Shown here: positions 7,756 to 25,978 of the stretch, piece by piece
How the letters are laid out: each line of letters opens with the position of its first letter
Position numbering within the stretch: position 1 is the stretch's first letter
NCBI RefSeq assembly: GCF_900167125.1
Contig: NZ_FUYC01000002.1
Coordinates: 186,001 to 250,000, forward strand
Length of the DNA: 64,000 nucleotides
Direction of reading: 5' to 3'
Origin: Paucidesulfovibrio gracilis DSM 16080
Lineage (GTDB): Bacteria; Desulfobacterota; Desulfovibrionia; Desulfovibrionales; Desulfovibrionaceae
The notes under the pieces: model-generated
The model's input: the letters and a program-made list of their open reading frames with translations, nothing else
Told to the model about the DNA's origin: nothing
Database searches by the model: none
Translations under genes and position numbers: made by a program

Positions 7756-7759
7756 GGAT

Positions 7760-8203: not shown

Positions 8204-8228
8204 GGCCGCTCCGCAAGGGGAAATCGAC

Positions 8229-8600: not shown

Positions 8601-8612
8601 AGGGGGACGAAC

Positions 8613-9695: not shown

Positions 9696-9705
9696 GGGGA
9701 CCACC

Positions 9706-10077
9706 ATGCTGTTTCTGACGCCCAGCGTATTGAAGAATGCGGCGAAAAAACCCGCCACCAGGAAATATCCCTTTGTGGTCCGCGAGCCGTTTGACCGCTA
9801 TCGCGGGGAATTGGTCATCAATGCCGAGGACTGCATTCTTTGCGGTTCCTGCATGCGGAAATGCCCGTCCCTGTGCATCACGGTGGACAAAAAAACCGAG
9901 ACCTGGGAATGTGACCCCTACGCCTGCATTTATTGCGGCCATTGCGTCACGGTTTGCCCGACCCACGCCCTGAGCATGAAGAGCGTCCACCGTGGCCCGG
10001 CACCGCAAAAGGTGACCATGAGCGAAAAAGGGCACCTGCCCAAGAAAAAGAAGAAAAAGGCCGAGGAAGCGGAATAG
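9706..10077 (+). CDS. echF: Ech hydrogenase ferredoxin-type subunit F
   Basis: The 123-residue subunit has two [4Fe-4S] motifs, CILCGSCMRKCPSLC (about 45-59) and CIYCGHCVTVCP (about 74-85), and takes electrons from reduced ferredoxin to EchC. The ATG at 9706 follows an AGGGGGACC ribosome site 10 bases after echE. An in-frame extension upstream is only echE sequence in another frame. The C terminus ends in a run of six Lys followed by AEEAE, a charged tail not essential to the fold. It is the last gene of the ech operon; a terminator follows within 30 bases. Confidence 0.94.
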   Translation: MLFLTPSVLKNAAKKPATRKYPFVVREPFDRYRGELVINAEDCILCGSCMRKCPSLCITVDKKTETWECDPYACIYCGHCVTVCPTHALSMKSVHRGPAPQKVTMSEKGHLPKKKKKKAEEAE

Positions 10078-10508: not shown

Positions 10509-12257
10509 TCAGGTTTCCATACTCCAACCGCGGAGGCGGTAGTAGTCCGCCACCATGCGGTCCATGGCCTCGCGGCTGAGGTGTTTGCCGTCGGGCAGGG
10601 CTTCACGGGTCAGACGGGAGGGGAGTCGGTCCATGTCCGTGGTCAGACCTTCGCGCAGATTGAACTCTCGACTGAGCTGCACGGCCCTGGCTCCCAGGCG
10701 TTGCAGTGATTTTTTATCTCCGGGCAGGCCCGTGAGCCGTTCCATGAGTCGGCCCAGTTCTTCCCAGGTATACATGTCCCGGTAGAATCGGCAGAGGATC
10801 AGGTTGTCGAACAGGGCGAGACGGTCCTCAAAGTCGATGAGCAGTTCGGCCTTGCCCTCCACCTGATCGGGCGGAATCATGCCCGCCAGCTCCGGCTTGT
10901 AAAAGGTGGTGCGCAAGTGACACGCACCCCGCGCCGTGGTCGCATAGGTCAGGCCCATGCCCTGGAGGGCACGGGGGTCATAACCCGGCGGTTCCATGCC
11001 TTTGACGTGTACGGCCATGTCTTCCATGGCCCATTCCCGGGCCGCGTGGCGGATGCCCTGGGCCAGAATCTCTCCGATTCCCTGGCGGGCGGCCATGTTC
11101 CGCAGCAGTTCGGCGCAGCCTTCGGGATCGTTGTATCCCGGTGCCTGGTCGATGCGTCCGCGAAGGCCCGCCTCAATGGTCAGGCCGCAGAGGTTGCCTG
11201 CGGTGATGGTATCCAGACCGAGCCGGTCGCAGAGGTCGTTGAGGTGCACGATCTCGGCCATGTCGTCGATCATGCACAGGCCGCCGAAGGCATAGATGGT
11301 TTCGTATTCCGGTCCCTCCAGTCGCAGGCCGTTGTGCCGTCCGCCGCGCACCGTGGTCATGCGGCCGCAGGCCATGAAGCATTTGCGGCAGGCGTGGGGC
11401 CGGACATCGTGTTCCGCGTGAAAGGTCTCGCCGGAGAGCTGTTCCCAATGGTCGCAGCTGCCTTGGCTCCAATACTTGGCTGGGAACGCGCCCGCGGTAT
11501 TCATCAAGGCGACCATGGCCGTGGTGCCGAATTTTTTGTATCCCTTGGCTCCGGGCGTATCCTTCCCCGCCGCGAGAAATTGCTTGGCATAGTCGGAAGC
11601 GCCTTCCGGATCGGCCAGGGGGCGTTTTCGGTTTCCGGCAAAGACCACGGCCTTGAGTTGTTTGGACCCCATGACCGCTCCGGCGCCGCCCCGTCCGGCA
11701 CTGCGCCAGTAATCATTTTCCAGCAGGGCAAAGCAGACCTGTTTTTCCCCGGCCGGACCGATGACCACGGCTCCCGGTCGGGAATAGCCCACGGGGGCGA
11801 AGCGTTGCACCGCGGCATCCTCGGCCTGGTAGGTCTCCATACCCCAGAGGTCGCGGGCCAAATGAAAGTCGCATCCATTGGGGTGGATTGCCAGGACTGT
11901 GGGCCGGTCGGCGCGGCCGGTGATGACCACGGCATCGAAACCCGCCGCGTCCATGGATTCCGGGAGTTTCCCTCCGGCGTAGGACTCCAGATACAGCCCC
12001 GTGAGCGGGGATTTGGTATACACGCCGTAGCGGCTGCCTCCCCAGCTGGGACCGTTGCAGGCCGGACCCGTGGTGAAGATGAGGCGGTTGTCCGGGCCGA
12101 GGGGTTCGGTGCCGGGCGGGTTCTCGTCCAGCAACAGCCGGGTACCCAGAACCTTGCCTCCGGGGTGTCGGGTCAAAAATTCCTCGGAAAGGGGCACGAT
12201 GTCATACCAGCGCCGGGTCAGGTCAATGCGCAACATGCGCCCGTAAGCTCCGAACAT
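10509..12257 (-). CDS. aldehyde:ferredoxin oxidoreductase (tungsten AOR family)
   Basis: The 582-residue enzyme oxidises aldehydes to acids with reduction of ferredoxin, using a tungsten (or molybdenum) bis-pterin. The N-terminal AOR domain has the pterin-binding stretches GPACNGPSWGGSRYGVYTKS (66-83) and SAGRGGAGAVMGSK (186-199). The [4Fe-4S] ligands are Cys290, Cys293 and Cys297 (CRKCFMAC), with a fourth near the C terminus (LILCRFYRD, about 505). The ATG follows an AAGGAGAGAC ribosome site. It is the last gene of the leftward catabolic operon and probably handles an aldehyde made by the aminotransferases upstream. Reduced ferredoxin could feed the adjacent Ech hydrogenase (inference). Confidence 0.92.
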   Translation of the reverse strand: MFGAYGRMLRIDLTRRWYDIVPLSEEFLTRHPGGKVLGTRLLLDENPPGTEPLGPDNRLIFTTGPACNGPSWGGSRYGVYTKSPLTGLYLESYAGGKLPESMDAAGFDAVVITGRADRPTVLAIHPNGCDFHLARDLWGMETYQAEDAAVQRFAPVGYSRPGAVVIGPAGEKQVCFALLENDYWRSAGRGGAGAVMGSKQLKAVVFAGNRKRPLADPEGASDYAKQFLAAGKDTPGAKGYKKFGTTAMVALMNTAGAFPAKYWSQGSCDHWEQLSGETFHAEHDVRPHACRKCFMACGRMTTVRGGRHNGLRLEGPEYETIYAFGGLCMIDDMAEIVHLNDLCDRLGLDTITAGNLCGLTIEAGLRGRIDQAPGYNDPEGCAELLRNMAARQGIGEILAQGIRHAAREWAMEDMAVHVKGMEPPGYDPRALQGMGLTYATTARGACHLRTTFYKPELAGMIPPDQVEGKAELLIDFEDRLALFDNLILCRFYRDMYTWEELGRLMERLTGLPGDKKSLQRLGARAVQLSREFNLREGLTTDMDRLPSRLTREALPDGKHLSREAMDRMVADYYRLRGWSMET

Positions 12258-12296: not shown

Positions 12297-12354
12297 GCTG
12301 ACGGCGCGCAGGCCGTTCTTCAACCGCTGACGGCGTGCAGGCCGTCCTTGAGGA
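12297..12354. repeat. 29-bp tandem duplication at the 3' end of the gabT-like gene
   Basis: Two nearly identical 29-base copies (12297-12325 and 12326-12354) differ at a few positions. The second copy encodes the last residues of the aminotransferase (DGLHAVSG) and the first reproduces the same peptide-like end (NGLRAVSS) just after the stop codon. It looks like a small tandem duplication of the gene end. Confidence 0.7.
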
Positions 12355-13621
12355 TGGACAGGCCGCGGTCCAGTTCCTGATCCGTGATCACCAGCGGCAT
12401 GAGGGTGCGGATGACGTTGCCGAAATTGCCGCAGGCCAGGATGATCAGCCCCTGCGCCCGGCAGTGGGCCACAAGAGCCTTGGCCTTGTCCGCGGCTGGC
12501 GTTTTGGTCTGGCGGTCTTGTACCAGTTCCAGCGCCAGCATGGGACCAAGGCCACGAACATCTCCCACGATTTCAAATTCCTGCTGAAAGCCGTCAAAGA
12601 CTTTGCGCACGTGCCGGCCCAGTTCTTGGGCGCGATGCAGCAGCCCGTCCTCCAGGAGTATGTCCAGCACGGCCAAGGCCGCGGCGCAGGCTGTGGGACT
12701 GCCGCCGTAGGTGCCGCCCAGGCCGCCCACGTGGGGAGCGTCCATGATTTCGGCCCGGCCCACCACGCCGGAAAGCGGCATGCCACCGGCAAGGGATTTG
12801 GCCACGGTGATCATATCCGGGGCCACGCCCCAGTGTTCGATGGCGAACAGCGTCCCTGTGCGGCCGAATCCGCTTTGCACTTCATCCACGATGAGCCGGA
12901 TGCCGTATTTGTCGCAAATACTTCGCAGCCGGGGAAAGTATTCAGGTGGCGGCGTGGCGAATCCGCCCTCGCCCTGGATCGGTTCCACCACCAGGGCCGC
13001 GGTGCGTTCGGCAGCCACGTGGGATACGAAAAATTCTTCCAAATAGTCGGCGCAGGCCGCTCCGCAGGCTGGATGCGTCAGCCCCAGCGGGCAGCGGTAG
13101 CAGTAGGCGTAGGGGGCGCGGTAAACCTCCGGAGCGAACGGTCCAAACCGATATTTGTACGGCTTGACCTTGCTGGTCAGGCTCATGGTCAACAGACTAC
13201 GGCCGTGGAATCCGTTTTGAAAGGCAATAACCGCAGGGCGGCCGGTTTCGTAGCGTGCGATCTTCACCGCGTTTTCCACGGCTTCGGCACCGGAATTGAG
13301 AAAGAACGATTTCTTGGCAAAGTCTCCAGGAGCCAGGGCGTTGAGACGTTCGGCCAGCTCCACGTATCCTTCATACATAACGACGTGGAAGCAGGTGTGC
13401 AGGAATTTTTCCGCCTGTTCCTGCACGGCCCGCACCACCTTGGGGTGGCAGTGGCCCGTGTTGACCACGCCGATGCCTCCGGCAAAGTCGATATACTCCC
13501 GCCCTTCCACGTCCGTGATGGTGGCTCCCCGGGCCTGGGCTGCAAATGCGGGCAACATGTTGGCCGGTCCCTGGGGTATGGCCTCTTGGCGGCGCCGGAG
13601 TAAATCGTTGTTGCTGACCAT
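12320..13621 (-). CDS. gabT: class III aminotransferase, 4-aminobutyrate type
   Basis: The 433-residue PLP enzyme matches 4-aminobutyrate/5-aminovalerate aminotransferases. The cofactor pocket is seen in NSGAEAVENAVKIAR (about 109-123), the Asp of LIVDEVQSGFGRTG (about 241-254) and the Schiff-base Lys in MITVAKSLAGGMPLSG (about 270-285). GGAGG precedes the ATG. It lies between the thiolase and the aldehyde oxidoreductase. Its likely role is to move the amino group of an omega-amino acid to 2-oxoglutarate, yielding a semialdehyde for the AOR. Substrate choice (GABA, 5-aminovalerate, a beta-amino acid) is not settled by sequence, so the symbol denotes the family. Confidence 0.85.
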   Translation of the reverse strand: MVSNNDLLRRRQEAIPQGPANMLPAFAAQARGATITDVEGREYIDFAGGIGVVNTGHCHPKVVRAVQEQAEKFLHTCFHVVMYEGYVELAERLNALAPGDFAKKSFFLNSGAEAVENAVKIARYETGRPAVIAFQNGFHGRSLLTMSLTSKVKPYKYRFGPFAPEVYRAPYAYCYRCPLGLTHPACGAACADYLEEFFVSHVAAERTAALVVEPIQGEGGFATPPPEYFPRLRSICDKYGIRLIVDEVQSGFGRTGTLFAIEHWGVAPDMITVAKSLAGGMPLSGVVGRAEIMDAPHVGGLGGTYGGSPTACAAALAVLDILLEDGLLHRAQELGRHVRKVFDGFQQEFEIVGDVRGLGPMLALELVQDRQTKTPAADKAKALVAHCRAQGLIILACGNFGNVIRTLMPLVITDQELDRGLSILKDGLHAVSG

Positions 13622-13671: not shown

Positions 13672-14880
13672 TCAGATGCGTTCGATGATGGTTGCCACGC
13701 CCTGGCCCCCGCCGATGCAGGAGGCGGCGCAGCCGAACCTGCCTTGTTCAGCTTCCAGAATGCGGGCCAGCGTACCCACGAGCCGCACTCCCGTGGCTCC
13801 CATGGCATGACCCAGGGCCAGACCTCCGCCTTTGACGTTGATCCGTCCCGCAGGGAGACCGAGTTGCCGCATGGCGTGGAGTACCACGATGGCAAAGGCT
13901 TCGTTGATTTCCCAATAGTCCATGTCATCCACGGCGTATCCGGCTTTTTCCAGGGCCATGCGCACGGCAGGCACGGGAGCCGTACCCATGACCGTGGGGT
14001 CCACGCCTGCAAACCCAATGGACCGGATTGCACCCAGGGGCTGGATGCCCAGCTCGGCGGCGCGTTCGCGGGTCATGAGCAGCATGGCTGCGGCGCCGGA
14101 ATTTAGAGGAGAGGCGTTCCCTGCGGTGATGCCGCCGTTTTCCTTGTCGAAAATTGGGGTCAGTCCGGCCATGCCGTCCAGATCCGCATTGTCCCGCACG
14201 GCCTGGTCCCGGTCGACGCGCAGGGTGGTTCCATCAGCTTGGGGGGCGTCCAGGGGCAGGATTTCCCCGTCAAAGAAGCCTTGTTCTCTGGCCTTGACCG
14301 CCAATTGATGGGAGCGCACGCCGAAGGCATCCATGTCCCGACGTGAAAAGGTACTTTGCTTCCAAAGCTTTTCTGCGGTTCGGCCCATGACCATGGTGGT
14401 ATTCATGTCCCAATGGTCGTAGCGGTCGTCCGTGAACAGCGCTGGATTCATGCTGATGGTGCCGTTTTCAAACAGGGTTGGTCCCATGGGAACGCGGGTC
14501 ATGTGCTCCATGCCGCAGGCCAGGACCGTGTCGGCGTACCCGGAAGCGATTTCCAGGTATCCCATGTGGATGGCGGCCATGCCCGAGCCGCATTGCTGGT
14601 CGAGAAAACGGGCCGGTACGGTTTCCGGCAGATTGGCCTGGAAAATGGGGGTGCGGCCGCCGAAAGTCCAGTTTTCCGCCACGCCCAGGGCGCAGCCCAC
14701 GAGAAAGTCGTCCAGGTCCGCGCCGCGCATTCCGGTGCGTTCCAGCAGTTCGGGGAGCAGAGCGCAGAGCAGGTCGTCGGCGCGCAGGGCGTGGAACCAA
14801 TCCCGCTCCGGATCCTTGGGCCGGGCGCGGGATTGAGCGGTTCGTAAATATCCGGCAATGACCACTTCTCGCATGGACAT
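13672..14880 (-). CDS. acetyl-CoA acetyltransferase family thiolase
   Basis: The 402-residue protein is a thiolase that cleaves or forms 3-oxoacyl-CoA. The nucleophilic Cys is in DQQCGSGMAAIHMG (near residue 92), the catalytic His is in NVKGGGLALGHAMGATG, and the second Cys is in ASCIGGGQG near the C terminus, so all catalytic residues are present. GGAGCC precedes the ATG. It lies in one direction with the CoA-transferase pair, which suggests that a CoA-activated keto-acid from this operon is split to acetyl-CoA and a shorter acyl-CoA. Confidence 0.9.
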   Translation of the reverse strand: MSMREVVIAGYLRTAQSRARPKDPERDWFHALRADDLLCALLPELLERTGMRGADLDDFLVGCALGVAENWTFGGRTPIFQANLPETVPARFLDQQCGSGMAAIHMGYLEIASGYADTVLACGMEHMTRVPMGPTLFENGTISMNPALFTDDRYDHWDMNTTMVMGRTAEKLWKQSTFSRRDMDAFGVRSHQLAVKAREQGFFDGEILPLDAPQADGTTLRVDRDQAVRDNADLDGMAGLTPIFDKENGGITAGNASPLNSGAAAMLLMTRERAAELGIQPLGAIRSIGFAGVDPTVMGTAPVPAVRMALEKAGYAVDDMDYWEINEAFAIVVLHAMRQLGLPAGRINVKGGGLALGHAMGATGVRLVGTLARILEAEQGRFGCAASCIGGGQGVATIIERI

Positions 14881-14899: not shown

Positions 14900-16183
14900 T
14901 TATTCCACGAGTCCGCACCAGCGGGCCGCGAACAGGGCGTAGGCCCGGGCCGTATGCAGCACGCTTTCCAGGTTCACGCGTTCGTCCGGGCCGTGGATGC
15001 GTTCGGCCACCGGCCCATAGCAGCAGCCCCGGGCCGTACCGTGGGAGTAAAAGGCACGCAGGTCCGTGGTGCAGGTGGATATGTATTCCTGCGCATGCTG
15101 CCCGGTGAGGTCGCGATGGCACTCATTCAGGGTGGCCAGGGGTGGAGCCTGGCGGGATTCGATATGCCCGTCGGACCGGAATCCGTAAAAATCCACTTCC
15201 GGCGGGTTGGCCTCCAGCCAGGGATCCTGTTTGGCGGCCCGGGCCACGGTTTGTACCACACGGGCGCGAATGTCCTCGAAGCCTTGGCCGGGTGGATAAG
15301 CCATGCGGCAGTGGAATTCGGCTGAGGCCGGCACTGTGGACGGCCAGTCCCCGCTTTTCAGAACGCCCACGTTGAGATGCAGAGGGTGATCCATGTCGTC
15401 GTATGGTGGCGGAAGGGGAGCGTTGTTGCACTCCTGTTCCAGCTCCCGCAGAGCCTGGATCAGTGGGAAACATTTTTCCAGGGCGTTGGCTCCGGTGTCG
15501 GCCTCCTGGACGTGTACGGGGCGTCCGCCCACAACAATGCGGAACCAGAGCACGCCCACCTGGGCCGTGAGCAGACGGGGACCAAAGGGTTCGGGGATGA
15601 GCACCGCGTCCGCGTCCACTCCGGCGGCGCGGCAGGCCAGCGCACCGTTGCCCGAGCATTCCTCCTCGATGACTGTTTCGATGATCAGGGGGGCGGCCAG
15701 ACCGAATCCTGCTTTGCGTAGGGCATGGGCCGCATAGGTCATGGCTGCCACGCCCGATTTCATATCGCCGCTGCCCCGGCCGTACATCCAGCCGTCCTCC
15801 ACTTCGGGCCGGAAGGGATCACGGGTCCAAAGGTCCAGCGGTTCCGGGCTGACCACATCCAAATGACCGTTGAACACGGCGCTTCGGCCGTCCAGACCTT
15901 CCGGAGCGGTATGGTCCGGCTCCAGCCGGGCCACAACGTTCCAGCGGTCGTGTTCGGCCCAGGGGACCGGGGCGAATCCGGGGTGTACGCTCAGGGCGGT
16001 ATAGTCGATGGGGACATGCCGCAAAGGGAGGTCCAACCGGCTGAGTTCATCGGCCATGAGCCGCAGGGCGCCTTTTTCATGCCCCACGGTGCTGGGTTGG
16101 GCCACCAGTCGGGCCGTGAAATCAAACAGATCGTCCTCCAGGGACGTCACGGTATCCAGAATTTTTTGTTCCTTGGTGTTCAA
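14900..16183 (-). CDS. M20 family deacylase/peptidase (ArgE/DapE-like)
   Basis: The metal-dependent hydrolase (427 residues) cleaves an amide or N-acyl bond. Zinc ligands and catalytic residues are visible in FNGHLDVVSPEP (His, then Asp), GRGSGDMKSGVAAM (Asp) and TVIEEECSGNGAL (the Glu pair). A lid/dimerisation domain is in the middle. I prefer the TTG at 16181-16183, which has AAGGAAGG five bases upstream; an in-frame ATG at 16240 has no ribosome site and would add 19 low-complexity residues. In this operon it may release an amino acid or amine from an acylated substrate imported by the Pot-type transporter. Confidence 0.85.
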   Translation of the reverse strand: MNTKEQKILDTVTSLEDDLFDFTARLVAQPSTVGHEKGALRLMADELSRLDLPLRHVPIDYTALSVHPGFAPVPWAEHDRWNVVARLEPDHTAPEGLDGRSAVFNGHLDVVSPEPLDLWTRDPFRPEVEDGWMYGRGSGDMKSGVAAMTYAAHALRKAGFGLAAPLIIETVIEEECSGNGALACRAAGVDADAVLIPEPFGPRLLTAQVGVLWFRIVVGGRPVHVQEADTGANALEKCFPLIQALRELEQECNNAPLPPPYDDMDHPLHLNVGVLKSGDWPSTVPASAEFHCRMAYPPGQGFEDIRARVVQTVARAAKQDPWLEANPPEVDFYGFRSDGHIESRQAPPLATLNECHRDLTGQHAQEYISTCTTDLRAFYSHGTARGCCYGPVAERIHGPDERVNLESVLHTARAYALFAARWCGLVE

Positions 16184-16251
16184 GCGCCTTCCTTGGGTTC
16201 CGGTGGCAAATTGTCCGCTGGTCGCGGGGCATGGCGGCATGGGGGCATGGA

Positions 16252-16902
16252 TCAGAAACGGGGCGGGTCGTCCTCGGGCAGAATGACCCGGGCCTCAGTC
16301 TTGTCCAAAACGTCCTCCGGCCGGACGCCGTGGGCCAGTTCTCGCAGAAGCAGTCCCTGGGGCGTGGGATCCAGCACGGCCAGTTCCGTGATGATCCGGT
16401 GCACGCAGGCTTTGGCCGTGACGGGCAGAGTGCAGGAGCGCAGGAGTTTGGGCGCACCGGACCGCGTGGTGTGGGTGGTGGTCACGATGACGCGGCGGGC
16501 CTTTTGGGCCAGTTCCATGCCACCGCCAATGCCTGGGGCAAATTTTCCAGGGATGATCCAGTTGGCAAGGTCGCCGTTTTCCGCCACTTCCAGCGCACCG
16601 AGCACAGCCACGTCCAGCCGCCCGCCGCGGACCAGTGCAAAGGAGAGCGCGGAATCGAAAAATGCCGCACCGGAGCGGACGGCGATGTAATCCCCTCCCG
16701 AATCGATGAGCGCGGGATGAGCCTGACACGCCGGGCAGCGCGGACCCATGCCCAGGACGCCGTTCTCGCTGTGTACGAAGATCTCCAGATCCTCGGGTGT
16801 ATGGTTCAGCAGCAGGGTGGGCAGTCCGATGCCCAGGTTGACCACCTGGCCGTTTTGCAGTTCCCGGGCGGCGCGTTTGGCGATTTTATGTTTGGGCGAC
16901 AT
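16252..16902 (-). CDS. 3-oxoacid CoA-transferase subunit B
   Basis: The 216-residue beta subunit of a family I CoA-transferase contains the catalytic Glu in HSENGVLGMG (about residue 46), where a glutamyl-CoA thioester forms, and the later GGAMELA-like stretch IGGGMELAQKARRVI. The start is the ATG at 16900-16902, 17 bases inside the alpha-subunit gene, which is the usual overlap of these pairs. It converts a carboxylate to its CoA ester using acetyl-, succinyl- or another acyl-CoA; the exact acid (acetoacetate, butyrate, an amino acid product) is unknown. Confidence 0.9.
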   Translation of the reverse strand: MSPKHKIAKRAARELQNGQVVNLGIGLPTLLLNHTPEDLEIFVHSENGVLGMGPRCPACQAHPALIDSGGDYIAVRSGAAFFDSALSFALVRGGRLDVAVLGALEVAENGDLANWIIPGKFAPGIGGGMELAQKARRVIVTTTHTTRSGAPKLLRSCTLPVTAKACVHRIITELAVLDPTPQGLLLRELAHGVRPEDVLDKTEARVILPEDDPPRF

Positions 16903-17608
16903 GATGCTTGAGCACTCCGTAGTCTGACAGGGTGGTGTCCGCCGGTACGACATGGTCCACGAACGCACCCGGGAGGTGAATATGGTCCGGATCCAGTTCG
17001 CCGATGTCCACGATTTCCAGCGCCTCCACGATGACGAGGTCGGCTGCCGTGGCCATGAGCGGATTGAAGTTGCGTGCGGTTTTTTCAAATACCAGGTTGC
17101 CCCAGCGGTCGGCCCGGGCAGCGTGAATCAGGGCGGCATCCGCCCGCAGGGACGGTTCCACGATGCAGGTTTGCCCCTGAAATTCCATGGTTTGTCGCTT
17201 TTCCCGCAGGATGGTGTCCAGGCCGATATCCGTCAGGATTCCGGTCAGCCCGGCACCTGCGGCGCGGATTTTTTCGGCCAGCAGCCCCTGGGGATGCATT
17301 TCCACTTCCAGTTCCCCCTGGTTCATCATCTCGATGACCGCGCTGTTAAGCCCCATGTGCGAGACAACGAACCGACGGGCGCAGCCCGCTTCCATGAGCG
17401 TGGATACGCCGATGCCCTGTTCGTTGGCGTCGTTTTTAATCACGGTCAGACCGTGCGGAGCGCGTTGCAACAGGGCGGCCAGCAAGGTGAAGGGCGTCCC
17501 CGGTGAGCCGAATCCGCCCACCATGACGGAACTGTTGTTCGCGATGCGGGCCAGGGTCGTGGCAGGGTCCGTGGTTTTGTCGATGGCGGGGGGCAATGTG
17601 GGGGGCAT
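16886..17608 (-). CDS. 3-oxoacid CoA-transferase subunit A
   Basis: The 240-residue alpha subunit has the CoA-binding glycine loop MVGGFGSPGTPFTLL (about 29-43), corresponding to GGFGxxGxP in AtoD/ScoA proteins, and the segment LTVIKNDANEQGIGVSTLME. GGAGGCCGCGCC precedes the ATG. Its 3' end overlaps the beta-subunit start. It follows the transposase/aminotransferase fusion gene by 40 bases and is almost certainly co-transcribed with it. Confidence 0.9.
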   Translation of the reverse strand: MPPTLPPAIDKTTDPATTLARIANNSSVMVGGFGSPGTPFTLLAALLQRAPHGLTVIKNDANEQGIGVSTLMEAGCARRFVVSHMGLNSAVIEMMNQGELEVEMHPQGLLAEKIRAAGAGLTGILTDIGLDTILREKRQTMEFQGQTCIVEPSLRADAALIHAARADRWGNLVFEKTARNFNPLMATAADLVIVEALEIVDIGELDPDHIHLPGAFVDHVVPADTTLSDYGVLKHHVAQT

Positions 17609-17648: not shown

Positions 17649-19979
17649 TCAGCGATAATAGGGCGTGGCGGGCGTAGGGCCGGAGGCGCGTTCCTCGGCC
17701 AGGGTCGTTTCCAGGGCGTTCAGATGGTCGGCCGTCCGGGTCAGCGCCTTATCCAGTTTTTCCAGAAGCTCGGCGATTTGCGCCTCCCGCACGATCAGGG
17801 GGGGCGCCACGAGCACATGGTCGCCGTAGAGTCCGTTGATGGATCGGCGGGGATAAATCAGCAGGCCGTCGGCAAAGGCGTTGTCCGTGAGCAGCATGGC
17901 CGCGTTCCATTCCGGGGGGAAGGGCTCCCGGGTTTGTGGGTCGCGCACCAGTTCCAGGGCCGTGAGCAGTCCCAGGCCGCGCACCTCGCCGATAAAGCGG
18001 TGCTTGCGACCGAGCCGATTCAAGCCTTTGAGCAGGATTTTTCCCATGCGGTCCGCGTTTTCCGGGAGCTTGTCCTCCATGATGACGCGAAGCACCTCCT
18101 GCCCCACGGCGCAGGCCATGGGGTTACCCGCATAGGTATGGCCGTGGGCGAATCCGCCGCGCCGGACCACGACATCCACGATCTCATCCGTGGTCAGGAT
18201 GGCCCCGAGGGGATAGTAGCCCGAGGCAATGCCCTTGGACAGGGCCACCACATCGGCTTGCACCCCCCAATGTTCGTAGGCGAAGAGTTTTCCGGTACGG
18301 CCGAATCCGGTCATGACTTCGTCCAGCACAAGGAAAATGCCGTATTTACGGCAGATGTGCTGGATGATGCCGAAATATTCGTCCGGCGGCACCAGAGCGC
18401 CGGTGCTGGCCCCGCCCACGGGTTCCACCACAAAGGCCGCAATATTATCCGGTCCCTGTTCCAGCACGGTTTTTTCCAACGCCCAGGCGCACTCCAGCTC
18501 ACAGTCCGGATATTGCTTGTGGTACACGCAGCGGTAGCAGGTGGGGGCCGGAATTTTGGGATTGTCCCGCACCAGGGGTTTGAAGGCCACTTCCAGAGGG
18601 GCGTAGGACGTCAGGGACAGGGCGCCCAGGGTGGAGCCGTGGTAGGCGGGCACCCGGCTGACGAACTTGTACCGCGACCCTTCCCCGAGATTGAAGAAAT
18701 ACTGACGGCAGACCTTCATGGCCGATTCCACGGCCTCGGAACCGCCGGAAACGAAAAAGACCCGGTTCAGGTGGGGAGCGGAATGCTCCACGAGCTGCCG
18801 GGCCAGCTCCTGCGAGGGGCGGTTTTCGAACTGGGTGCGGTAGGCGAAGAAGGTTTGGCGGGACTGGCGTTCCACCGCGGCAATGACACGGCGGTTGCCA
18901 TGGCCGATGTTATTCACCACGGCCCCGGAACATCCGTCCAGATACTGCTTGCCCCGCGTGTCCCACATGTAGATGCCTTCGGCTCCGGCAATGATGGGCT
19001 GTTCCTTCTTGGTTTGGTAAAAAAGGTATTTTTCCTGGTCCGGATACGCGGCCAATTCCCCTGGATGCCGTTTGAAGAGGTCTGGGTGCGCTTCGTGGAA
19101 GCGGGCCAGTTTTTCCACGGGCGTGAGGCGTCCCATGGTCATCAGGGGGATGTGGTTGTTGTAGACGTGGGCGTGGGCCAGCAGTTTTTTTTCGATCTCC
19201 TCGGACGAGGCAAAGGAGGAAGGCTGCGAGGCTGTGGTCCCTGCGTGGTCGGGCAGAGGCTGGTGCGATTCCTGGGTGCGGGCCGGATAGGTGACGTGCT
19301 CCACGCCAAGCTCCTCGCAGGCCAGGCCAAAGGGATCGGGGTCTTCCTCGGCCGGGCGGAACAGGGGGCGGTCCGCCGTGAGTATCCGGCGCAGATGAAA
19401 GGGCGCTCCGTCTGAAAGGTCGCGTAAGAATGCGGCCGCCTCCTCAGGGGATCCGTCTTCCCGAGCTTCCAGGAAGAGCCAGCCCGAGGAGCGGTCCACG
19501 GCCATGAACAGATGTTTCCGGAATTCCTCATGCTGCACCCGGGGCAGGGTGCGCTCATGCACCCGCATGAACCCTGGAAGATAGGACTTGTATTCGCGCA
19601 GTACGCGGCGGTGTTCCTCAGGATCGGGTACCAGGTCGGCGATGCGGCAGACGCCGTGACGTCGCAGGAGCCGGTCCAGTGACGAACGGGAACAGGATGG
19701 CTGAATGAACATGCGCACCACGGCGAGCAGATCGTCCAGGGAGAGGAGCATGGAGCGCCTGATTTCCACGATGAGCGCCTGTTGGTCCGGGGTGAAGGAG
19801 GTGCGCGAGGGACGGGCGCGCCGATTTTCCTCGTAGCCTTCGGCGCGTTTTCGCCATTTGCGTACCGTGGACTCGCTGAGGCCCAGCTCCCGCGCCAATT
19901 TGGGGACGGATTTTTGCGATTCTCCGATGTATTTCCTGATGGCGGGGGTGGTTCGTTTTTTACGAAGCGTGAAGACCAT
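17649..19979 (-). CDS. fusion protein: degenerate IS481-type transposase domain + class III PLP aminotransferase
   Basis: This single open frame encodes 776 residues. Residues 25-45 form a helix-turn-helix (KLARELGLSESTVRKWRKR) and a second helical region follows to about 115. Residues 136-306 read like the integrase core and tail of IS481-family transposases: KHLFMAVDRSSGWLFLE, PFHLRRILTA, and the family-typical YNNHIPLMTMGRLTPVEKL at 273-291. The three acidic catalytic positions are not conserved: the HID motif reads HER, LTDNG reads LTADR, and the VERF motif is replaced by QESHQP. From about 314 to 760 there is a full class III aminotransferase with SGGSEAVESAMK, LVLDEVMTGFGRTG (Asp553) and Schiff-base Lys582 in ALSKGIASGYYP. 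The ATG at 19979 has GGAG seven bases upstream. It is the first gene of the leftward operon. I infer an aminotransferase-based regulator analogous to GabR, or a DNA-tethered enzyme; a purely catalytic role is the alternative. Confidence 0.9.
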   Translation of the reverse strand: MVFTLRKKRTTPAIRKYIGESQKSVPKLARELGLSESTVRKWRKRAEGYEENRRARPSRTSFTPDQQALIVEIRRSMLLSLDDLLAVVRMFIQPSCSRSSLDRLLRRHGVCRIADLVPDPEEHRRVLREYKSYLPGFMRVHERTLPRVQHEEFRKHLFMAVDRSSGWLFLEAREDGSPEEAAAFLRDLSDGAPFHLRRILTADRPLFRPAEEDPDPFGLACEELGVEHVTYPARTQESHQPLPDHAGTTASQPSSFASSEEIEKKLLAHAHVYNNHIPLMTMGRLTPVEKLARFHEAHPDLFKRHPGELAAYPDQEKYLFYQTKKEQPIIAGAEGIYMWDTRGKQYLDGCSGAVVNNIGHGNRRVIAAVERQSRQTFFAYRTQFENRPSQELARQLVEHSAPHLNRVFFVSGGSEAVESAMKVCRQYFFNLGEGSRYKFVSRVPAYHGSTLGALSLTSYAPLEVAFKPLVRDNPKIPAPTCYRCVYHKQYPDCELECAWALEKTVLEQGPDNIAAFVVEPVGGASTGALVPPDEYFGIIQHICRKYGIFLVLDEVMTGFGRTGKLFAYEHWGVQADVVALSKGIASGYYPLGAILTTDEIVDVVVRRGGFAHGHTYAGNPMACAVGQEVLRVIMEDKLPENADRMGKILLKGLNRLGRKHRFIGEVRGLGLLTALELVRDPQTREPFPPEWNAAMLLTDNAFADGLLIYPRRSINGLYGDHVLVAPPLIVREAQIAELLEKLDKALTRTADHLNALETTLAEERASGPTPATPYYR

Positions 19980-20010
19980 TCGAAACTCCGGTAGGTGTGC
20001 CGATCTCTTT

Positions 20011-20064
20011 TCGACACGTAATTTCAAAAAAAGCAATTACAGGTCGAAATCCAGACCTGTACTC
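20011..20064. promoter_or_regulatory. inverted half-site array, candidate operator
   Basis: The sequence TCGACACGTAATT (20011-20023) is repeated in inverted orientation as the complement of AATTACAGGTCGA (20035-20047), with 11 of 13 positions matching and an 11-base spacer. The right arm also forms a perfect 7-base inverted repeat, ACAGGTC (20039-20045) with GACCTGT (20054-20060). Three copies of a GACCTGTA-like half-site in alternating orientation therefore lie 32-85 bases upstream of the fusion gene start. It could bind the fusion protein's HTH (inference). Confidence 0.5.
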
Positions 20065-20468
20065 GTATTCTGTCGATGGTAAACGTGGTTCATTTGACGA
20101 AAGCGTTGTAAGGCGATTTTTAGTCAGTCTGCCTTGGGTAACTATTTTTCAAGAATCTAACAGAAAATTCAAAAAAATCAAAATAGTTCTTTTGAACGTA
20201 TGCAACCGTAGGATTCCTAACGTTTCGCTTAAGTTGTGTTGAAAAGCTGAAAATGATTTTTGTAGTGATAAAATAGGTAAAAATTTTTTTGATTTTTGAA
20301 AAAATGAGTTTAAAAAAAGTGCTGAATGGTCCTCCAATAATATGTATGAGACAAAAAAAGGAATATGACCTTGACTTAATTTAAAAATCCACCTAGTAAC
20401 AAACAACCCATTAACAAAAATGTTAGTTCAGAGTACCTCCGAATCGGGGGTGGAGAGAAGTTGTTCCC
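20061..20468. other. AT-rich divergent control region
   Basis: About 400 bases without a credible gene separate the leftward catabolic operon from the potB-type gene. The base composition is strikingly AT-rich, with many A and T runs (for example around 20270-20320), in contrast to the GC-rich genes on both sides. Short frames here lack ribosome sites. It probably holds the divergent promoters and could be a remnant of transferred DNA. Confidence 0.6.
20371..20399 (+). promoter_or_regulatory. possible promoter of the amine importer operon
   Basis: TTGACT at 20371-20376 is followed after 17 bases by TAGTAA at 20394-20399, about 70 bases before the potB start. The -35 box is good and the -10 box poor, so this is tentative. 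Confidence 0.35.
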
Positions 20469-21338
20469 ATGAATGAAAATCAGCACTCCCGCTGGCGACC
20501 CTGGGCGTTGCTGGCTCCCTCGCTTAGCGCCGTCTTCCTGCTGCTCGTGGTCCCCGTTTGTTTTATCGTGGTGTACAGTTTTTGGCTTCGCGCCCCGTCG
20601 GGGGCGGATATTGTGGCCTTCCAGTTCGGCAACTATGCAAAGTTCTTCCAGGATTTTTTCTATCCCTCCATTCTGTTGCGTACCATTCGCGTGAGCCTGG
20701 AGTGCGTATTCCTCTGCCTGGTCATGGGCTACATCCCGGCCTATTTTTTCTATCGCAGCAAAACGCGATTCAAGTCTTTGCTCATGCTTCTGATCATGCT
20801 GCCGTTTTGGATCAGCTTCATCATCCGGACCCTGTCCTGGATCAATATCCTGGGCGACACGGGCCTGATCAACTATCTGCTGGTATCCGCCGGGATCATC
20901 CAGGAGCCTTTCGGCATGCTCTACAACGAGGGAGCCGTGCTCATGGGGCTGATCCAGTATCTTTTGCCGTTCATGATCCTGAATATCTACGTGAGTCTGG
21001 AAGGCATCGACCGGAGTCTGCTCGAGGCGGCCCGGTCCATGGGCTGCACCGAATGGCAGGCCTTTCGCGAGGTGACGCTGCCTCTGTCCCTGCCCGGGGT
21101 GAGCGCAGGCAGTCTGCTGGTTTTCGTGCTGTCCGCGGGAACGTATCTGCCGCCCATGATCCTGGGCGGACCGGGTAACGAGATGATCGCCAACCTGATT
21201 TTCAAGCGGGTCATCGGCACGTTGGACTGGCCGTTCGGCTCGGCCATCAGCGTGATTCTGCTGCTCCTGGTGGGCACCATCGTCTGGACCTACAATCGCT
21301 ATCTGGGCATCAACCAGGTCTTCAAGGCCATGCAATAG
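20469..21338 (+). CDS. potB: ABC transporter permease, PotB family
   Basis: The 289-residue inner-membrane permease has about six membrane helices and the EAA cytoplasmic loop EAARSMGCTEWQAFREVTLP (about 189-208) that docks on the ATPase. It resembles the spermidine/putrescine permease PotB. A GGAGAG site lies about 11 bases before the ATG. It is the first of four genes in the order B-C-D-A, opposite in direction to the fusion gene operon. The gene name gives the family; the substrate could be putrescine, spermidine or another cationic amine. Confidence 0.88.
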   Translation: MNENQHSRWRPWALLAPSLSAVFLLLVVPVCFIVVYSFWLRAPSGADIVAFQFGNYAKFFQDFFYPSILLRTIRVSLECVFLCLVMGYIPAYFFYRSKTRFKSLLMLLIMLPFWISFIIRTLSWINILGDTGLINYLLVSAGIIQEPFGMLYNEGAVLMGLIQYLLPFMILNIYVSLEGIDRSLLEAARSMGCTEWQAFREVTLPLSLPGVSAGSLLVFVLSAGTYLPPMILGGPGNEMIANLIFKRVIGTLDWPFGSAISVILLLLVGTIVWTYNRYLGINQVFKAMQ

Positions 21339-21350
21339 GGCGGTATCCGA

Positions 21351-22142
21351 ATGTTCAAAATCACCGGCTGGTCTCTAATCCGGCTCTACACGACCCTGGT
21401 CTACGTATTCATGTTCGCCCCCATCGCCGTGGTGGTGATCCTTTCCTTCAATCCGCAGCAGTTCGGATCCTTCCCCATGGACGGGTTCAGCCTGCGCTGG
21501 TACGCGGAATTGGCAGGCAATGCCGACATTCTGGAGGCATTCGGCAATTCCCTGGTGTTGGGGGGGCTGACGGCCATCTGCACCACGGCTGTGGCCATTC
21601 CCGCAGCAATGGCGTTCGTACGGTACGACTTTCCCGGCAAGAACAGCCTGAATACCCTGCTGTTGGCACCCATCATGGTTCCGGAGGTGATTCTGGGCGT
21701 GGCCCTGCTGCTGTTCATGCGCTGGCTCCAGCAGCCCAAGAGCTTCGCCATGCTGCTCATCGGCCACGTGGTCATCACCCTGCCGTACGTGCTGCTGGTG
21801 GTGCAGGCCCGGCTCGTGGGCATCCGCACCGACTATGAGGAAGCGGCCAAGTCGCTGGGGGCCAATCCGCTGCAAACGTTCCGCGAGATCACCTTTCCGT
21901 TGCTTATGCCCGCCATCCTGGCCGGAATGCTGTTCTCGTTCACCATTTCATTTGACGACATCACGGCCACACTGTTTTGGGCCACTGCCGGCAATCAGAC
22001 CGTGCCGGTGAAAATTTTCGGCATGCTTCGCAACTCCATCAGTCCCGAGATCAACGCGTTGGGCGCGGTCATGATCGTGCTCACTGTTTCCACGCCGCTT
22101 TTGGCCGGGTATCTGGCCCGCCGGTTTGCGCGCGGAGGTTGA
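21351..22142 (+). CDS. potC: ABC transporter permease, PotC family
   Basis: The second permease subunit has 263 residues and about six membrane segments, with the EAA loop EEAAKSLGANPLQTFREITF (about 163-182). It begins 12 bases after potB and pairs with it to form the membrane channel. The C-terminal half carries the ISFDDITATLFWATAGNQTVPVKI stretch typical of PotC proteins (described here by key residues FDD near 202-204). Confidence 0.88.
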   Translation: MFKITGWSLIRLYTTLVYVFMFAPIAVVVILSFNPQQFGSFPMDGFSLRWYAELAGNADILEAFGNSLVLGGLTAICTTAVAIPAAMAFVRYDFPGKNSLNTLLLAPIMVPEVILGVALLLFMRWLQQPKSFAMLLIGHVVITLPYVLLVVQARLVGIRTDYEEAAKSLGANPLQTFREITFPLLMPAILAGMLFSFTISFDDITATLFWATAGNQTVPVKIFGMLRNSISPEINALGAVMIVLTVSTPLLAGYLARRFARGG

Positions 22143-22243
22143 TGGAGACGGGATCCTGCCCGGAGCGGCAAAGCGCGACGACGTCCCCCCGGGGCGCAAC
22201 GCATGCCCGGCTGAACCGGGCCAAATTCAGAGGAGGACACATC

Positions 22244-23413
22244 ATGGACGACCACAAAGGCAAGGAGTGGAGCAGGCGGCTAAACGACGTACACGCCCGG
22301 TACCAGGCCGGCCACGTCTCTCGACGCGATTTTTTACGGTTCCTGGGTATCGCGGGCGCTGCCGCAGGGTTGTGCGGCGGTCCCTTCGGCTTGTTGCGTT
22401 CGGCGCAGGCGGCTCAGTCCATCCGTTTCGACGGCTGGGGAGGCACCACCTCGGAAGCCTTCCGCACGTATGCGTTCGAACCGTTCACCAAGGCCACGGG
22501 CATTGACGTCATTGACGGCGAGTTCGGCAACATGGACTCCTACCTCACCCGAGTGAAGGCCTCGTATCCTCCGGGAGGCGAATTCAACCTGGCGCACCTC
22601 TCCGGCGTGTTTGACTACGCGCGGTATGTGGGGTTGGGATTCCATTCCGAGTTGGACGAGAGCGGCATCCCCAATCTGGCCAATGTCATGACCGCCATGG
22701 TCGAGCCGTACCGGGCCATCACGCCGAAGAGTCTGTCCGCTGTTCCCTACGATCTGGGGCAGACCGGCATCGCCTACAACACCAAATACGTGTCCAAGGA
22801 ACAGGCCGAGAAACTGGGCGCGGGATTGCTTTTTGACGAACGTCTCAAGGGCAAGCTCGGTTCCTGGACAGACTGGCGCACCAACATTTGGTACGCGGCC
22901 CTGGCCACGGGCCAAAGCCCCAACGACATCACCGACCTGGATAAGGTCTGGGCCGCGCTCCGCAAGCAGCGCGACCTGGTCAAGAAGTACTGGGGATCCG
23001 GTGCGGAGCTTATGAGTCTTTTGGCCAACGAGGAAATCTATGCCACTCCGGCCTGGTCCGGACGTGTGGCGCACTTGCAGGAGCAGGGGCATCCCATCGG
23101 CTATCTGCAGCCCGAGGGAACGTATTCCTGGCAGGAGTGCATCTTTGTGCTCAAGGGGTCGGATACGGATGTGGCGCAGCAGCTGCTCAACTACATGCTG
23201 GAGCCGGAAGCGGCCGTGGCCGTGGCAGAGGCCCAGAAATATCCGCCATCCCTGGATCCCACCAAGGTGGAGCTGTCCGACACCGTGCGTGCGCTGCCTG
23301 CCTTCGACCCCACGGGCAAGCTGGACGGATATCTGTTTGGTGTTCCCGAATATTGGAATGGGCATCAACTGGAATGGGCCGAGATGTGGGACCGCATCAT
23401 GGCCGGAGCCTAA
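22244..23413 (+). CDS. potD: periplasmic substrate-binding protein, PotD family, Tat-exported
   Basis: The 389-residue solute-binding protein has a twin-arginine signal, SRRDFLRFLGIAGAAAG (about 26-42), ending near AQA. Most PotD proteins use the Sec route, so the Tat motif is notable. The mature part has the bacterial extracellular solute-binding fold (FDGWGGTTSEAFRTYAFEPF, VPYDLGQTGIAYNT, PEGTYSWQECIFVLKG). The ATG at 22244 follows an AGAGGAGG site; a longer in-frame start at 21977 lies inside potC. It delivers the substrate to PotBC. Confidence 0.88.
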   Translation: MDDHKGKEWSRRLNDVHARYQAGHVSRRDFLRFLGIAGAAAGLCGGPFGLLRSAQAAQSIRFDGWGGTTSEAFRTYAFEPFTKATGIDVIDGEFGNMDSYLTRVKASYPPGGEFNLAHLSGVFDYARYVGLGFHSELDESGIPNLANVMTAMVEPYRAITPKSLSAVPYDLGQTGIAYNTKYVSKEQAEKLGAGLLFDERLKGKLGSWTDWRTNIWYAALATGQSPNDITDLDKVWAALRKQRDLVKKYWGSGAELMSLLANEEIYATPAWSGRVAHLQEQGHPIGYLQPEGTYSWQECIFVLKGSDTDVAQQLLNYMLEPEAAVAVAEAQKYPPSLDPTKVELSDTVRALPAFDPTGKLDGYLFGVPEYWNGHQLEWAEMWDRIMAGA

Positions 23414-23562
23414 GAGCCTTTTGTTCGGAGCCTGGCGGCTTTTCCGGCGGAGCGAATGTTCGGCCGGAGCCTGTCGCCACAGCGGCCTGAATCGCAAACA
23501 TGACGTGGAGGTCCGCAACGGGCGGGCCTCCCTTTCCCCAACACAACCAAAGGAAAACATTC

Positions 23563-24783
23563 GTGCAGAACCACAGTCCCGACACTCGGCACAGTTCCCA
23601 TGCCCCGCACGTTCCGCAAGCGTCCGGTTCTTCCGGGGCCGTACCCGAGGCGGCCGCGTCCCCCTCCCGGGACGCTGTCGGCCATGAGCCAGCCGTGCGG
23701 CTCCAGGGGTTGATGAAGCGTTTCGGCAAGACCGTGGCCGTGCAGGAAACCGACCTGACCATTGAAACCGGCGAACTGGTGACCCTGCTCGGTCCTTCCG
23801 GATGTGGAAAGACCACCATCCTGCGCATGATTGCCGGGTTGGAGACTCCCACCAAAGGGGACATCTACATCAAGGGCCGCCGCATCAACGATACGCCCAT
23901 CCATAAACGGAATTTGGGCATGATCTTTCAGAACTACGCCCTGTTTCCCCATAAGACCATTTTCGAGAACGTGGCCTTTGGTCTCAAATATCGCAACGTC
24001 TCCCGCGAGGAGATGCGTGAAAAAGTTGCCCAGGCACTGGAAATGGTGCGTTTGCCGGGCGTGGAAAAACGCTACGCCTCCCAGCTTTCCGGAGGCCAGC
24101 AGCAGCGTATCGCCCTGGCCAGGGCCATTGTCATCGAGCCGGATGTGCTGCTCATGGATGAACCGCTTTCCGCACTGGATGAGAAGCTTCGTGAGGAAAT
24201 GCGCATGGAGATCGACAACATCCAGCAGCAGCTCAACCTCACCACCCTGTTCGTGACGCACGACCAGCGCGAGGCCTTGTCCATGTCCAACAAGATCGTG
24301 GTGATGAAGGACGGGCGTAAGCAGCAGGAAGGTACGCCCGAGGACGTGTACGATTATCCCGACAACTATTTCGTGGCCGACTTTCTGGGACACGCCAATT
24401 TTTTCGATGCCAGGGTGCTGGAAGTGCTGGACAACGACCAGGTACGCGTGCGTATCGCCGAGGGGCTGGAGTTCACGGCAGACCATGTGGGACGCTGGCG
24501 CCAGGGGCAGGACGTGCATTTGGTCATGCGCGCGCAAAAGATCAACGTGACCAGCCCGGACCTTGCCGACGAGGAACTGGAGTCCACGGACTTGAATTAT
24601 TACCCCGGTAAGATTTACGATCGCAGTTACATGGGCGGGGAAACCAGCTATTTTGTCGAACTGGCCAATGGCGTGCGTCTGCACATCATCAGCATGGTCC
24701 GCCGTCGGCCCCATCGCATTGGAGATGAAGTGGTCCTGCATGTGCCGGCCAGGCATTGCGGCCTGCTTCCCCGGGAGGCGTAG
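23563..24783 (+). CDS. potA: ABC transporter ATP-binding protein, PotA family
   Basis: The 406-residue ATPase has Walker A LLGPSGCGKTTI, the signature LSGGQQQRIALARA, Walker B VLLMDEPLSALD, the H-loop VTHDQRE and a C-terminal TOBE domain that regulates polyamine importers. A hydrophilic N-terminal extension of about 45 residues rich in Ser, His and Pro precedes the ATPase domain. The GTG at 23563 with AAAGGA upstream is the best start. It is the last gene of the four-gene importer and drives PotBC. Confidence 0.88.
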   Translation: MQNHSPDTRHSSHAPHVPQASGSSGAVPEAAASPSRDAVGHEPAVRLQGLMKRFGKTVAVQETDLTIETGELVTLLGPSGCGKTTILRMIAGLETPTKGDIYIKGRRINDTPIHKRNLGMIFQNYALFPHKTIFENVAFGLKYRNVSREEMREKVAQALEMVRLPGVEKRYASQLSGGQQQRIALARAIVIEPDVLLMDEPLSALDEKLREEMRMEIDNIQQQLNLTTLFVTHDQREALSMSNKIVVMKDGRKQQEGTPEDVYDYPDNYFVADFLGHANFFDARVLEVLDNDQVRVRIAEGLEFTADHVGRWRQGQDVHLVMRAQKINVTSPDLADEELESTDLNYYPGKIYDRSYMGGETSYFVELANGVRLHIISMVRRRPHRIGDEVVLHVPARHCGLLPREA

Positions 24784-24910: not shown

Positions 24911-25978
24911 ATGGACCTGACACGCATTGAGGCGGCCTTTGCCGGGCGTTGGCCCGGTGAATTGCTGACAGTGGATTCCCACACCGCCGGAGAAGGCACC
25001 CGGCTCATCGTGGGCGGCGTGCCGCATCTCGCCGGAATGACCATGGCCCAGAAGCGGACCGCCTTCATGGAACAGCACGACCGCATACGCCTGCTGCTCA
25101 CCCGTGAACCACGCGGCCATCGCGATTTGTTGGCCGCGGTGGTGACGGAACCCTGCACTCCAGGGGCGGACTTCGGCCTTATCTATATGGATGCCAAGCG
25201 GTATCCCCAATTGTGCGGGCATGCCACCATCGGTGCGGTGACGACCCTCATCGAATGCGGGGCATTGCCTGTGTTCGGCGGCGACGAGGTGCGCGTGGTC
25301 GTGGACACGCCTTCCGGTCCCATGCCCTGCACCGCGCGGATGCGGGCCGGACGCGTGGAGTCCGTGGCGTTTCGTTCGGTACCAGCGTTTGTTTGGGAGC
25401 AGAACGCGCCTTTGGACTTGACCGGGCTGCAACCCCGTGGTTGCCCCCCGCTGGGCATGGTGCACGCGGATACGGTCTGTGTGGGCGGCTTTTTCGTCAT
25501 GATCGACGAACGCTCCGTGGGCATTGAATTGCGGGCGGACAACGGCCCGCGGTTGGTGGAATTGGGCATGCGCATCATTGAAGAGGCCAACCGGCAATTT
25601 ACCGTCCGCCACCCGTTGCGCGGGGACGTACACACCGTGGACGTGGTGGAATTTTATGGCTCCCGGGAGACAACCGAGGGCGTGGTGGGTGTGAACGCCG
25701 TGGTATACGGGGAAGCCCATCTGGACCGCTCGCCCTGCGGTACCGGAACCACGGCCAAGTTGGCTCTGCTGCACCGGCGGGGAGAGCTGGCCGCGTACCA
25801 GCCTTACGTGAACCGCAGTTTCCTCGGCTCCACATTCACTGGCCGGGTGGTGGAAGAGTCCCTGGTGGGCGGAATTCCCGCCGTTGTGGCGGAGATTGAA
25901 GGCAGCGCGCAGGTCACGGGCCTGCATCGCTTCGTACTTGACGAAACCGACCCCTTCCCGCAAGGCTTGTTGCTGTGA
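24911..25978 (+). CDS. proline racemase family protein (proline/4-hydroxyproline epimerase-like)
   Basis: The 355-residue enzyme has both catalytic cysteines of the family: Cys102 in LCGHATIG and Cys276 in DRSPCGTGT. Two cysteines indicate a racemase/epimerase (proline racemase or 4-hydroxyproline 2-epimerase); dehydratases of the family have Thr at the second place. The phosphate-like carboxylate-binding loop TVDSHTAGEGTRLIVGG is at 20-36. It follows the importer by 127 bases and overlaps the amidohydrolase start by four bases. It probably inverts the alpha-carbon of an imported imino or amino acid. Confidence 0.85.
   Translation: MDLTRIEAAFAGRWPGELLTVDSHTAGEGTRLIVGGVPHLAGMTMAQKRTAFMEQHDRIRLLLTREPRGHRDLLAAVVTEPCTPGADFGLIYMDAKRYPQLCGHATIGAVTTLIECGALPVFGGDEVRVVVDTPSGPMPCTARMRAGRVESVAFRSVPAFVWEQNAPLDLTGLQPRGCPPLGMVHADTVCVGGFFVMIDERSVGIELRADNGPRLVELGMRIIEEANRQFTVRHPLRGDVHTVDVVEFYGSRETTEGVVGVNAVVYGEAHLDRSPCGTGTTAKLALLHRRGELAAYQPYVNRSFLGSTFTGRVVEESLVGGIPAVVAEIEGSAQVTGLHRFVLDETDPFPQGLLL

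Follow-up and report, generated by a model that had tools for sequence, protein, structure and literature searches.

An inactivated IS481-type transposase fused in frame to a class III aminotransferase in a Desulfovibrio-related genus: a possible enzyme and autoregulator of a catabolic operon

The gene at positions 17649-19979 (minus strand) of the window, i.e. the whole stretch of 64,000 nucleotides that was analysed, encodes a protein of 776 amino acids in which a nearly complete but dead IS481-type transposase (residues 1 to about 306) is followed by a complete class III aminotransferase. At a probability of roughly one half, we propose that this is a bifunctional protein which arose by in-frame insertion of an IS481-type element and which would act both as a pathway enzyme and as a DNA-binding autoregulator of its operon and of the importer encoded opposite. 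The transposase half would bind DNA within the 489-bp divergent region and would couple the expression of operon and importer to the substrate occupancy of the enzyme half. We infer DNA binding, operator, ligand coupling and exact substrate alike from sequence, and we find an enzyme that is also an autoregulator, with a logic like that of PutA, a better reading than a pure sensor of the GabR type. If true, a DNA-binding protein linked to an aminotransferase would have been invented a second time, independently and out of an insertion sequence, which would show a route from transposition to new regulator architectures.

The fusion gene and its distribution

The original prediction was of one uninterrupted frame joining a transposase to an aminotransferase, and this is what was found: from its ATG the frame runs over 776 codons without internal stop. 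A GGAG is located 6 nt before the ATG (19986..19989, minus strand), and it also precedes the same fusion ATG in the two other species, referred to below as G054 and G013. A frameshift or assembly join, or absence from related genomes, had been named as what could overturn the prediction. The fusion is present in 3/3 genus genomes searched, at 94% identity in G054 and 81% in G013; for G054 the value of 94% is over residues 1-725, up to a contig end, while residues 697-776 (89% identical) open another contig. Since the same fusion occurs in all three genomes, an assembly join is ruled out and the fusion is a real gene. We count as refuted the idea of an assembly or frameshift artefact uniting two genes, as it would have to have produced the identical frame in three separate assemblies at 81-94% identity. 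Pfam recognizes HTH_Tnp_1 at residues 14-56, HTH_29 at 24-68 and Aminotran_3 at 329-746 (333.2 bits for a cut-off of 30.5). Thus, two of the domains that had been proposed for the search, HTH_29 and Aminotran_3, were matched, whereas the third, rve, gave no Pfam match at E up to 10. The junction was placed by alignment with IS481 relatives and with the N-termini of unfused aminotransferases at residues 303-316 (19032..19073, minus strand): similarity to the transposase extends to about residue 306, and the enzyme N-terminus is expected at about 313-316.

Among 348 genomes of the order, 7 were matched by a profile made from the three N-terminal halves; in 3 of them, all of this genus, the match is the fusion. 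A class-level search with the N-half, also of 348 genomes, matched the same seven (the best 5-6 candidates were scored per genome in both searches). When a phylum sample was searched with this profile, again on the best 5-6 candidates per genome, 4 of 395 genomes matched, namely the window's genome and three whose elements are partial or stand alone (open frames of 154-355 aa). A contig scan with two short exact patterns, by design a narrow one, returned one fusion (that of G054) and one transposase. The enzyme half was found at E up to 1e-100 in 3/149 family genomes, all of this genus; with the limit set at E 1e-90, 65 other genomes among the 395 of the phylum have it. The transposase half is absent from the six frames read of these 65 (L045, L046, L049, L052, L060 and L069), and with this coverage no second transposase-aminotransferase fusion was found in the class and phylum samples. 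Recurrence in many genomes, which had been put forward as a source of support, was not observed: the fusion is limited to a small group of Desulfovibrio-related bacteria, one genus in the genomes searched. Two candidates for a second fusion were rejected, an open frame of 752 aa in genome G518, which is a spurious GC-rich extension, and a Shinella hit (H4), which consists of an aminotransferase gene and then a separate IS481 copy. In Shinella sp. PSBB067 (NZ_CP069303.1; locus L106, 3938-7680), an IS481 copy lies directly 3′ of another class III aminotransferase gene, unfused, and the next gene, named by eye, is deacylase-like.

The transposase half: descent, selection and origin

The NCBIfam IS481 model NF033577 matches residues 20-290 over profile positions 11-283 of 284 (E 8e-32, 110.8 bits). 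Its cut-off of 224 is not reached by residues 1-320 of the fusion (110.8 bits), while three intact relatives score 253, 292 and 262. Being collinear over the whole transposase, this half is, as judged from the alignment, a member of the IS481 family by descent. An alignment with 8 IS sequences revealed that, at the catalytic positions, one D is replaced by H, the other by A or S, and the E is lost, in 3/3 species. The claim of an IS481-like helix-turn-helix (HTH) plus integrase-core region with its three acidic residues replaced is therefore borne out by both the family match and the alignment; intact DDE residues, named beforehand as an observation that would speak against it, were found in none of the three species.

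To compare the parts of the protein, dN/dS was obtained from Nei-Gojobori counts between the window and either G054 or G013; in the latter comparison synonymous change is near saturation, which applies to every second value given here. The N-half as a whole has ratios of 0.07 and 0.18, and the enzyme half of 0.05 and 0.12. The first HTH (residues 14-56, HTH_Tnp_1; 19812..19940, this and the following parts being on the minus strand) is included in residues 1-60, with 0.04 and 0.12. A second HTH-like helical region (residues 61-128; 19596..19799), overlapped by a match to HTH_32 at residues 38-105 which at 25.1 bits is below the cut-off of 33.7, has 0.02 and 0.15. The dead integrase-core region covers residues 129-256 (19212..19595), with 0.07 and 0.15 in residues 129-200 and 0.31 and 0.39 in residues 201-256. 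The C-terminal tail of the transposase (residues 257-306; 19062..19211) is conserved across the genus, with 98% identity to G054 and 86% to G013 and ratios as low as 0.01 and 0.09. The contrast is also seen in the protein alignments: between the window and G013, 100/120 positions are identical in residues 9-128 versus 21/56 in residues 201-256 (Fisher p 2e-9), and the same test with G054 gives p 3e-5; residues 201-256 are far less conserved than the HTH part in 3/3 fusion pairs. Between two unfused elements (L074 and L027), in contrast, the corresponding values are 66/120 and 45/65 (p 0.06), and of 8 element pairs, 5 show higher conservation in residues 201-256 than in residues 9-128, 2 equal conservation and 1 slightly lower conservation, so that the contrast with the fusion is not uniform. 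The segment TVRKWRKR of the HTH part is identical in the three species and near the sequence of the unfused transposases. In short, the N-half is under purifying selection, the HTH part and the tail being retained and the catalytic segment eroded. The host has retained the DNA-binding-like parts and given up the cutting centre.

These data bear on two alternatives. According to the first, the enzyme is mainly made alone, by starting at codon 309, with the transposase half left to decay as a passenger. Codon 309 (19053-19055, minus strand) is located near the enzyme's expected N-terminus and is a possible start in all three species (TTG, TTG and ATG), but in none of them is there a well-spaced Shine-Dalgarno sequence (G-rich bases are 0-2 nt away or missing), the GGAG before the fusion ATG is retained, and the N-half dN/dS is well below 1, its highest values (0.31, 0.39) being confined to the dead core. 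We regard this as very improbable. The second is dominant-negative immunity, in which the dead transposase, its DNA-binding-like part being retained, could sit on the ends of IS481-type elements and block them, the enzyme fusion being incidental. It is barely credible, since the only IS481-like stretch in the genome is the fusion itself, with no other relative to be blocked, the HTH part is 37-47% identical to the IS relatives compared, and the fusion is kept inside one catabolic operon.

Structure prediction relied on shallow alignments (8 sequences for the N-half and 7 for the full-length protein), and mean pLDDT was 53.7 and 44.0, respectively. Because of these poor values, no domain arrangement was taken from the AlphaFold models, and the full-length one (mean pLDDT 44) was set aside as unusable. 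Only the two N-terminal helical (HTH) regions are fairly predicted (block pLDDT of 74-89 for residues 11-40), and in the N-half model the core is poor; in a Foldseek search with that model the best hits, retroviral integrases and the IstA transposase, have E values no better than 7e-3, which is only suggestive.

How such a fusion may arise is indicated by the right ends of IS481 relatives. Those of genome G669 constitute a multi-copy element of about 1.08 kb, with copies 80-97% identical to L074. Right ends were read in 11 relatives, where the transposase frame crosses the end of the element. It terminates at the TAG of a flanking CTAG in 4/11 (L077, L081, L082 and L083; the left flank of L082 is not CTAG) and at a TAA just outside the element in 1/11 (L080), while it continues into the flank in the other 6/11 (L074, L078, L079, L012, L027 and L011); five of the eleven (L077, L078, L079, L080 and L027) have a stop or frameshift further upstream in the transposase frame. 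Termination of an IS481-type transposase by a TAG from the target is described for ISRe46 (PMC6794481). Since the relatives' frame has no stop inside the element, an in-frame insertion without a target TAG makes a fusion at once. An apparently young fusion of this same type is that of L011 (genome G026, one of the other matches to the N-half; contig C17, transposase on the minus strand), where the DDE residues are intact and the frame, open over 722 aa to the contig end, enters an autotransporter-like coding sequence.

We infer an insertion as the origin of the aminotransferase fusion too. An IS481-type element would have inserted in frame, immediately 5′ of the aminotransferase gene; without a target TAG, the transposase frame would have read on into the adjoining gene; the fusion would then have been retained, with death of the DDE centre and preservation of the two N-terminal helical (HTH) regions and of the tail. 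The short gap between the transposase end (about 306) and the enzyme N-terminus (about 313-316) is what would be expected of an insertion just upstream of the gene. No left IS end scoring above shuffles was found in the intergenic regions of the three species, to which the search was confined, with a position matrix of 11-mers built on 15 ends (of which one was shifted by a base) and tested against 300 mononucleotide shuffles. The half-site TACAGGCC in the G054 leader, which resembles the L011 left end GTACAGTCCC, was considered as an IS-end remnant and rejected, there being nothing above shuffles in the three regions. If true, the proposal offers a plausible one-step origin, as the element need not own a stop codon, and predicts that other IS481 insertions without a target TAG left domesticated fusions elsewhere. 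More tentatively, and somewhat short of even odds, IS481-type elements may by borrowing their stop from the target be natural makers of C-terminal fusions, one of which was kept here as an enzyme-regulator: a DNA-binding module of transposase origin would be attached directly to the first enzyme of the pathway, in a cluster that has, in two unfused relatives, a LysR gene in its place.

The aminotransferase half and its operon

The class III domain (PF00202, 333.2 bits; residues 329-746, 17742..18995, minus strand) contains K582 (18234-18236, in ALSKGIASG) and D553 (18321-18323, in VLDEVMTG), and both motifs align with those of the solved transaminase 6io1, in agreement with the original claim of a full enzyme with Lys582 and Asp553 intact. 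The PRK06917 model gives 445 bits, below its cut-off of 535. The PRK06917 type is that of Bacillus subtilis YodT, and the gene set of the operon resembles yodQRST. No paper on yodT was found in the literature search; PMC3149608 is about another lysine-pathway class III enzyme.

The fusion is the first gene of an operon on the minus strand, whose following genes encode subunits A (16886..17608, TIGR02429) and B (16252..16902, TIGR02428) of a 3-oxoacid CoA-transferase, an ArgE/DapE family M20 deacylase (14900..16240, NF005306, PRK06837), a thiolase of the acetyl-CoA C-acetyltransferase family (13672..14880, NF005033, PRK06445), a second, unfused class III enzyme, 4-aminobutyrate (GABA) transaminase (12320..13621, TIGR00700), all over the cut-offs of these models, and an aldehyde ferredoxin oxidoreductase family protein (10509..12257), for which AFOR_N and AFOR_C are over cut-off and the sole NCBIfam match is below. 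On the opposite side is a divergent Pot-type ABC importer (20469..24783, plus strand), with permeases at 20469-21338 and 21351-22142, a binding protein ending at 23413 and an ATPase at 23500-24783; its PotB model, at 193 bits, is below the equivalog cut-off of 348. The position foreseen, first in a catabolic operon and opposite a divergent importer, is thus confirmed, with this reserve on the PotB assignment. G013 has the same gene order, both for the six genes that follow the fusion and, on the divergent side, for the importer, the racemase-like gene and the amidohydrolase gene; in G054 these operon and divergent genes are likewise all present, over three contigs. The racemase-like (proline racemase-like) and amidohydrolase genes follow the importer at 24911-27615 (plus strand) in the window. 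Beside the aldehyde oxidoreductase gene, at 6907-10077 (plus strand), Pfam identifies complex I/hydrogenase-like subunits (NADHdh, 49-kDa family) and a ferredoxin-type protein.

Unfused homologues (49-50% identical) provide a useful comparison. In two alphaproteobacterial plasmids of like layout, one is found directly before the genes for CoA-transferase A and B, M20 deacylase and thiolase, in the order of the fusion operon. These copies differ from the fusion in that the importer genes precede the aminotransferase on the same strand and a LysR gene is nearby, upstream. Of the 26 plasmid records matching the aminotransferase half at E 1e-100, 7 were examined: the same operon is present in 2, a gene for beta-keto acid cleavage adjoins the aminotransferase in 3, and the neighbours are others in the remaining 2. 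In the phylum, none of 20 regions around unfused aminotransferase hits (two of them cut by contig ends) has a CoA-transferase or M20 gene at E 1e-15, while a thiolase is present in 1 (35%) and an aldehyde oxidoreductase in 4. Because the Lys and Asp are kept, because the gene is first in the operon and because in the two plasmids unfused relatives precede this set of four genes, the aminotransferase half is probably still an enzyme. It would carry out the first step, probably the conversion of a beta-amino acid to a beta-keto acid, which would be followed by CoA transfer, thiolysis, deacylation to GABA, GABA transamination to succinate semialdehyde and oxidation of the latter to succinate. From this gene content, N-acetyl-beta-lysine would be the obvious candidate for the substrate. 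A gene elsewhere in the genome is over the cut-off of the lysine 2,3-aminomutase family model, which is not specific, as it also responds in E. coli and others.

The alternative closest to the known GabR/MocR regulators, and the one originally proposed, is a pure sensor, with an aminotransferase half that is no longer metabolic, senses an amine via PLP and gates the transposase-derived DNA-binding half. The joining of a DNA-binding-like N-half to an aminotransferase C-half and the divergent promoter position are what such a sensor would have. We nevertheless disfavour it as quite unlikely, because the catalytic residues and their flanking active-site motifs are intact, because the operon has no other aminotransferase besides the GABA transaminase and because the unfused relatives, annotated as aminotransferases, stand before the same four genes (two plasmids); the strong constraint on this half (dN/dS 0.05 and 0.12) is a further argument against it.

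Known systems and the divergent region

PutA is a trigger enzyme with a ribbon-helix-helix domain and a proline dehydrogenase; the fusion would be like it in combining, within one chain, a pathway enzyme with a DNA-binding autoregulator, while the parts are unrelated. With MocR/GabR it shares a DNA-binding N-half and an aminotransferase-type C-half in one chain, as well as the adjoining amine/GABA metabolism. However, MocR regulators have a GntR domain fused to a class I aminotransferase homologue (PMC5320631), whereas the fusion has an IS481-type HTH, a dead integrase core and a class III enzyme; the distinction from this architecture made in the original prediction was upheld, as there is no Pfam match to GntR at E up to 10 and the C-half is PF00202. 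The IS481 transposases (NF033577, ISRe46, the multi-copy element of G669) are collinear over the N-half and have the same HTH segment, and the read-through right end of the relatives would make fusions; the fusion differs in that it is a single copy, fused to an enzyme, below the family cut-off, without the DDE residues and with no left end found. It is therefore MocR-like in layout and PutA-like in proposed logic, and a member of neither. The architecture had been thought to be undescribed, and no description of it came up in a literature search, which dealt with titles and the starts of abstracts and covered few subscription papers. Transcription factors derived from mobile elements are treated in a review of elements recruited by prokaryotes (PMC8987985), the available portions of which contain no transposase-enzyme fusion.

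The candidate target of the fusion protein is the divergent intergenic region of 489 bp (19980..20468). Of the other gene products encoded between 10.5 and 27.6 kb, 12 were typed, and none of these matched a transcription factor. The leader contains a palindrome, TACAGGTC-N8-GACCTGTA, with a T-run (20038..20061, minus strand), which is terminator-like and may serve as an operator or in attenuation. One of its pairs is changed on both arms in G054, with pairing kept. The palindrome was not found in the G013 intergenic region, and its pattern fits a second place in the genome (one place for a reversed-pattern control); it was therefore rejected as a proven operator and kept as a candidate. A riboswitch was dismissed, no Rfam family being near its gathering score in the leader.

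The operator being unproven, with no IS-end-like site above shuffles and a palindrome pattern that is not unique, one may think of an N-half that no longer binds DNA and instead provides the enzyme with a scaffold, with a means of oligomerisation or with stability. The conservation of the tail that adjoins the enzyme (98% and 86% over residues 257-306) would suit this role. But strong conservation is also seen in the HTH part, whose TVRKWRKR is unchanged in three species and which is not obviously needed by a scaffold; we hold such a module to be unlikely, though worth keeping in mind beside the enzyme and autoregulator that we prefer. In the intergenic region of G013, inspection by eye revealed a different palindrome, TGATTCC-N9-GGAATCA.
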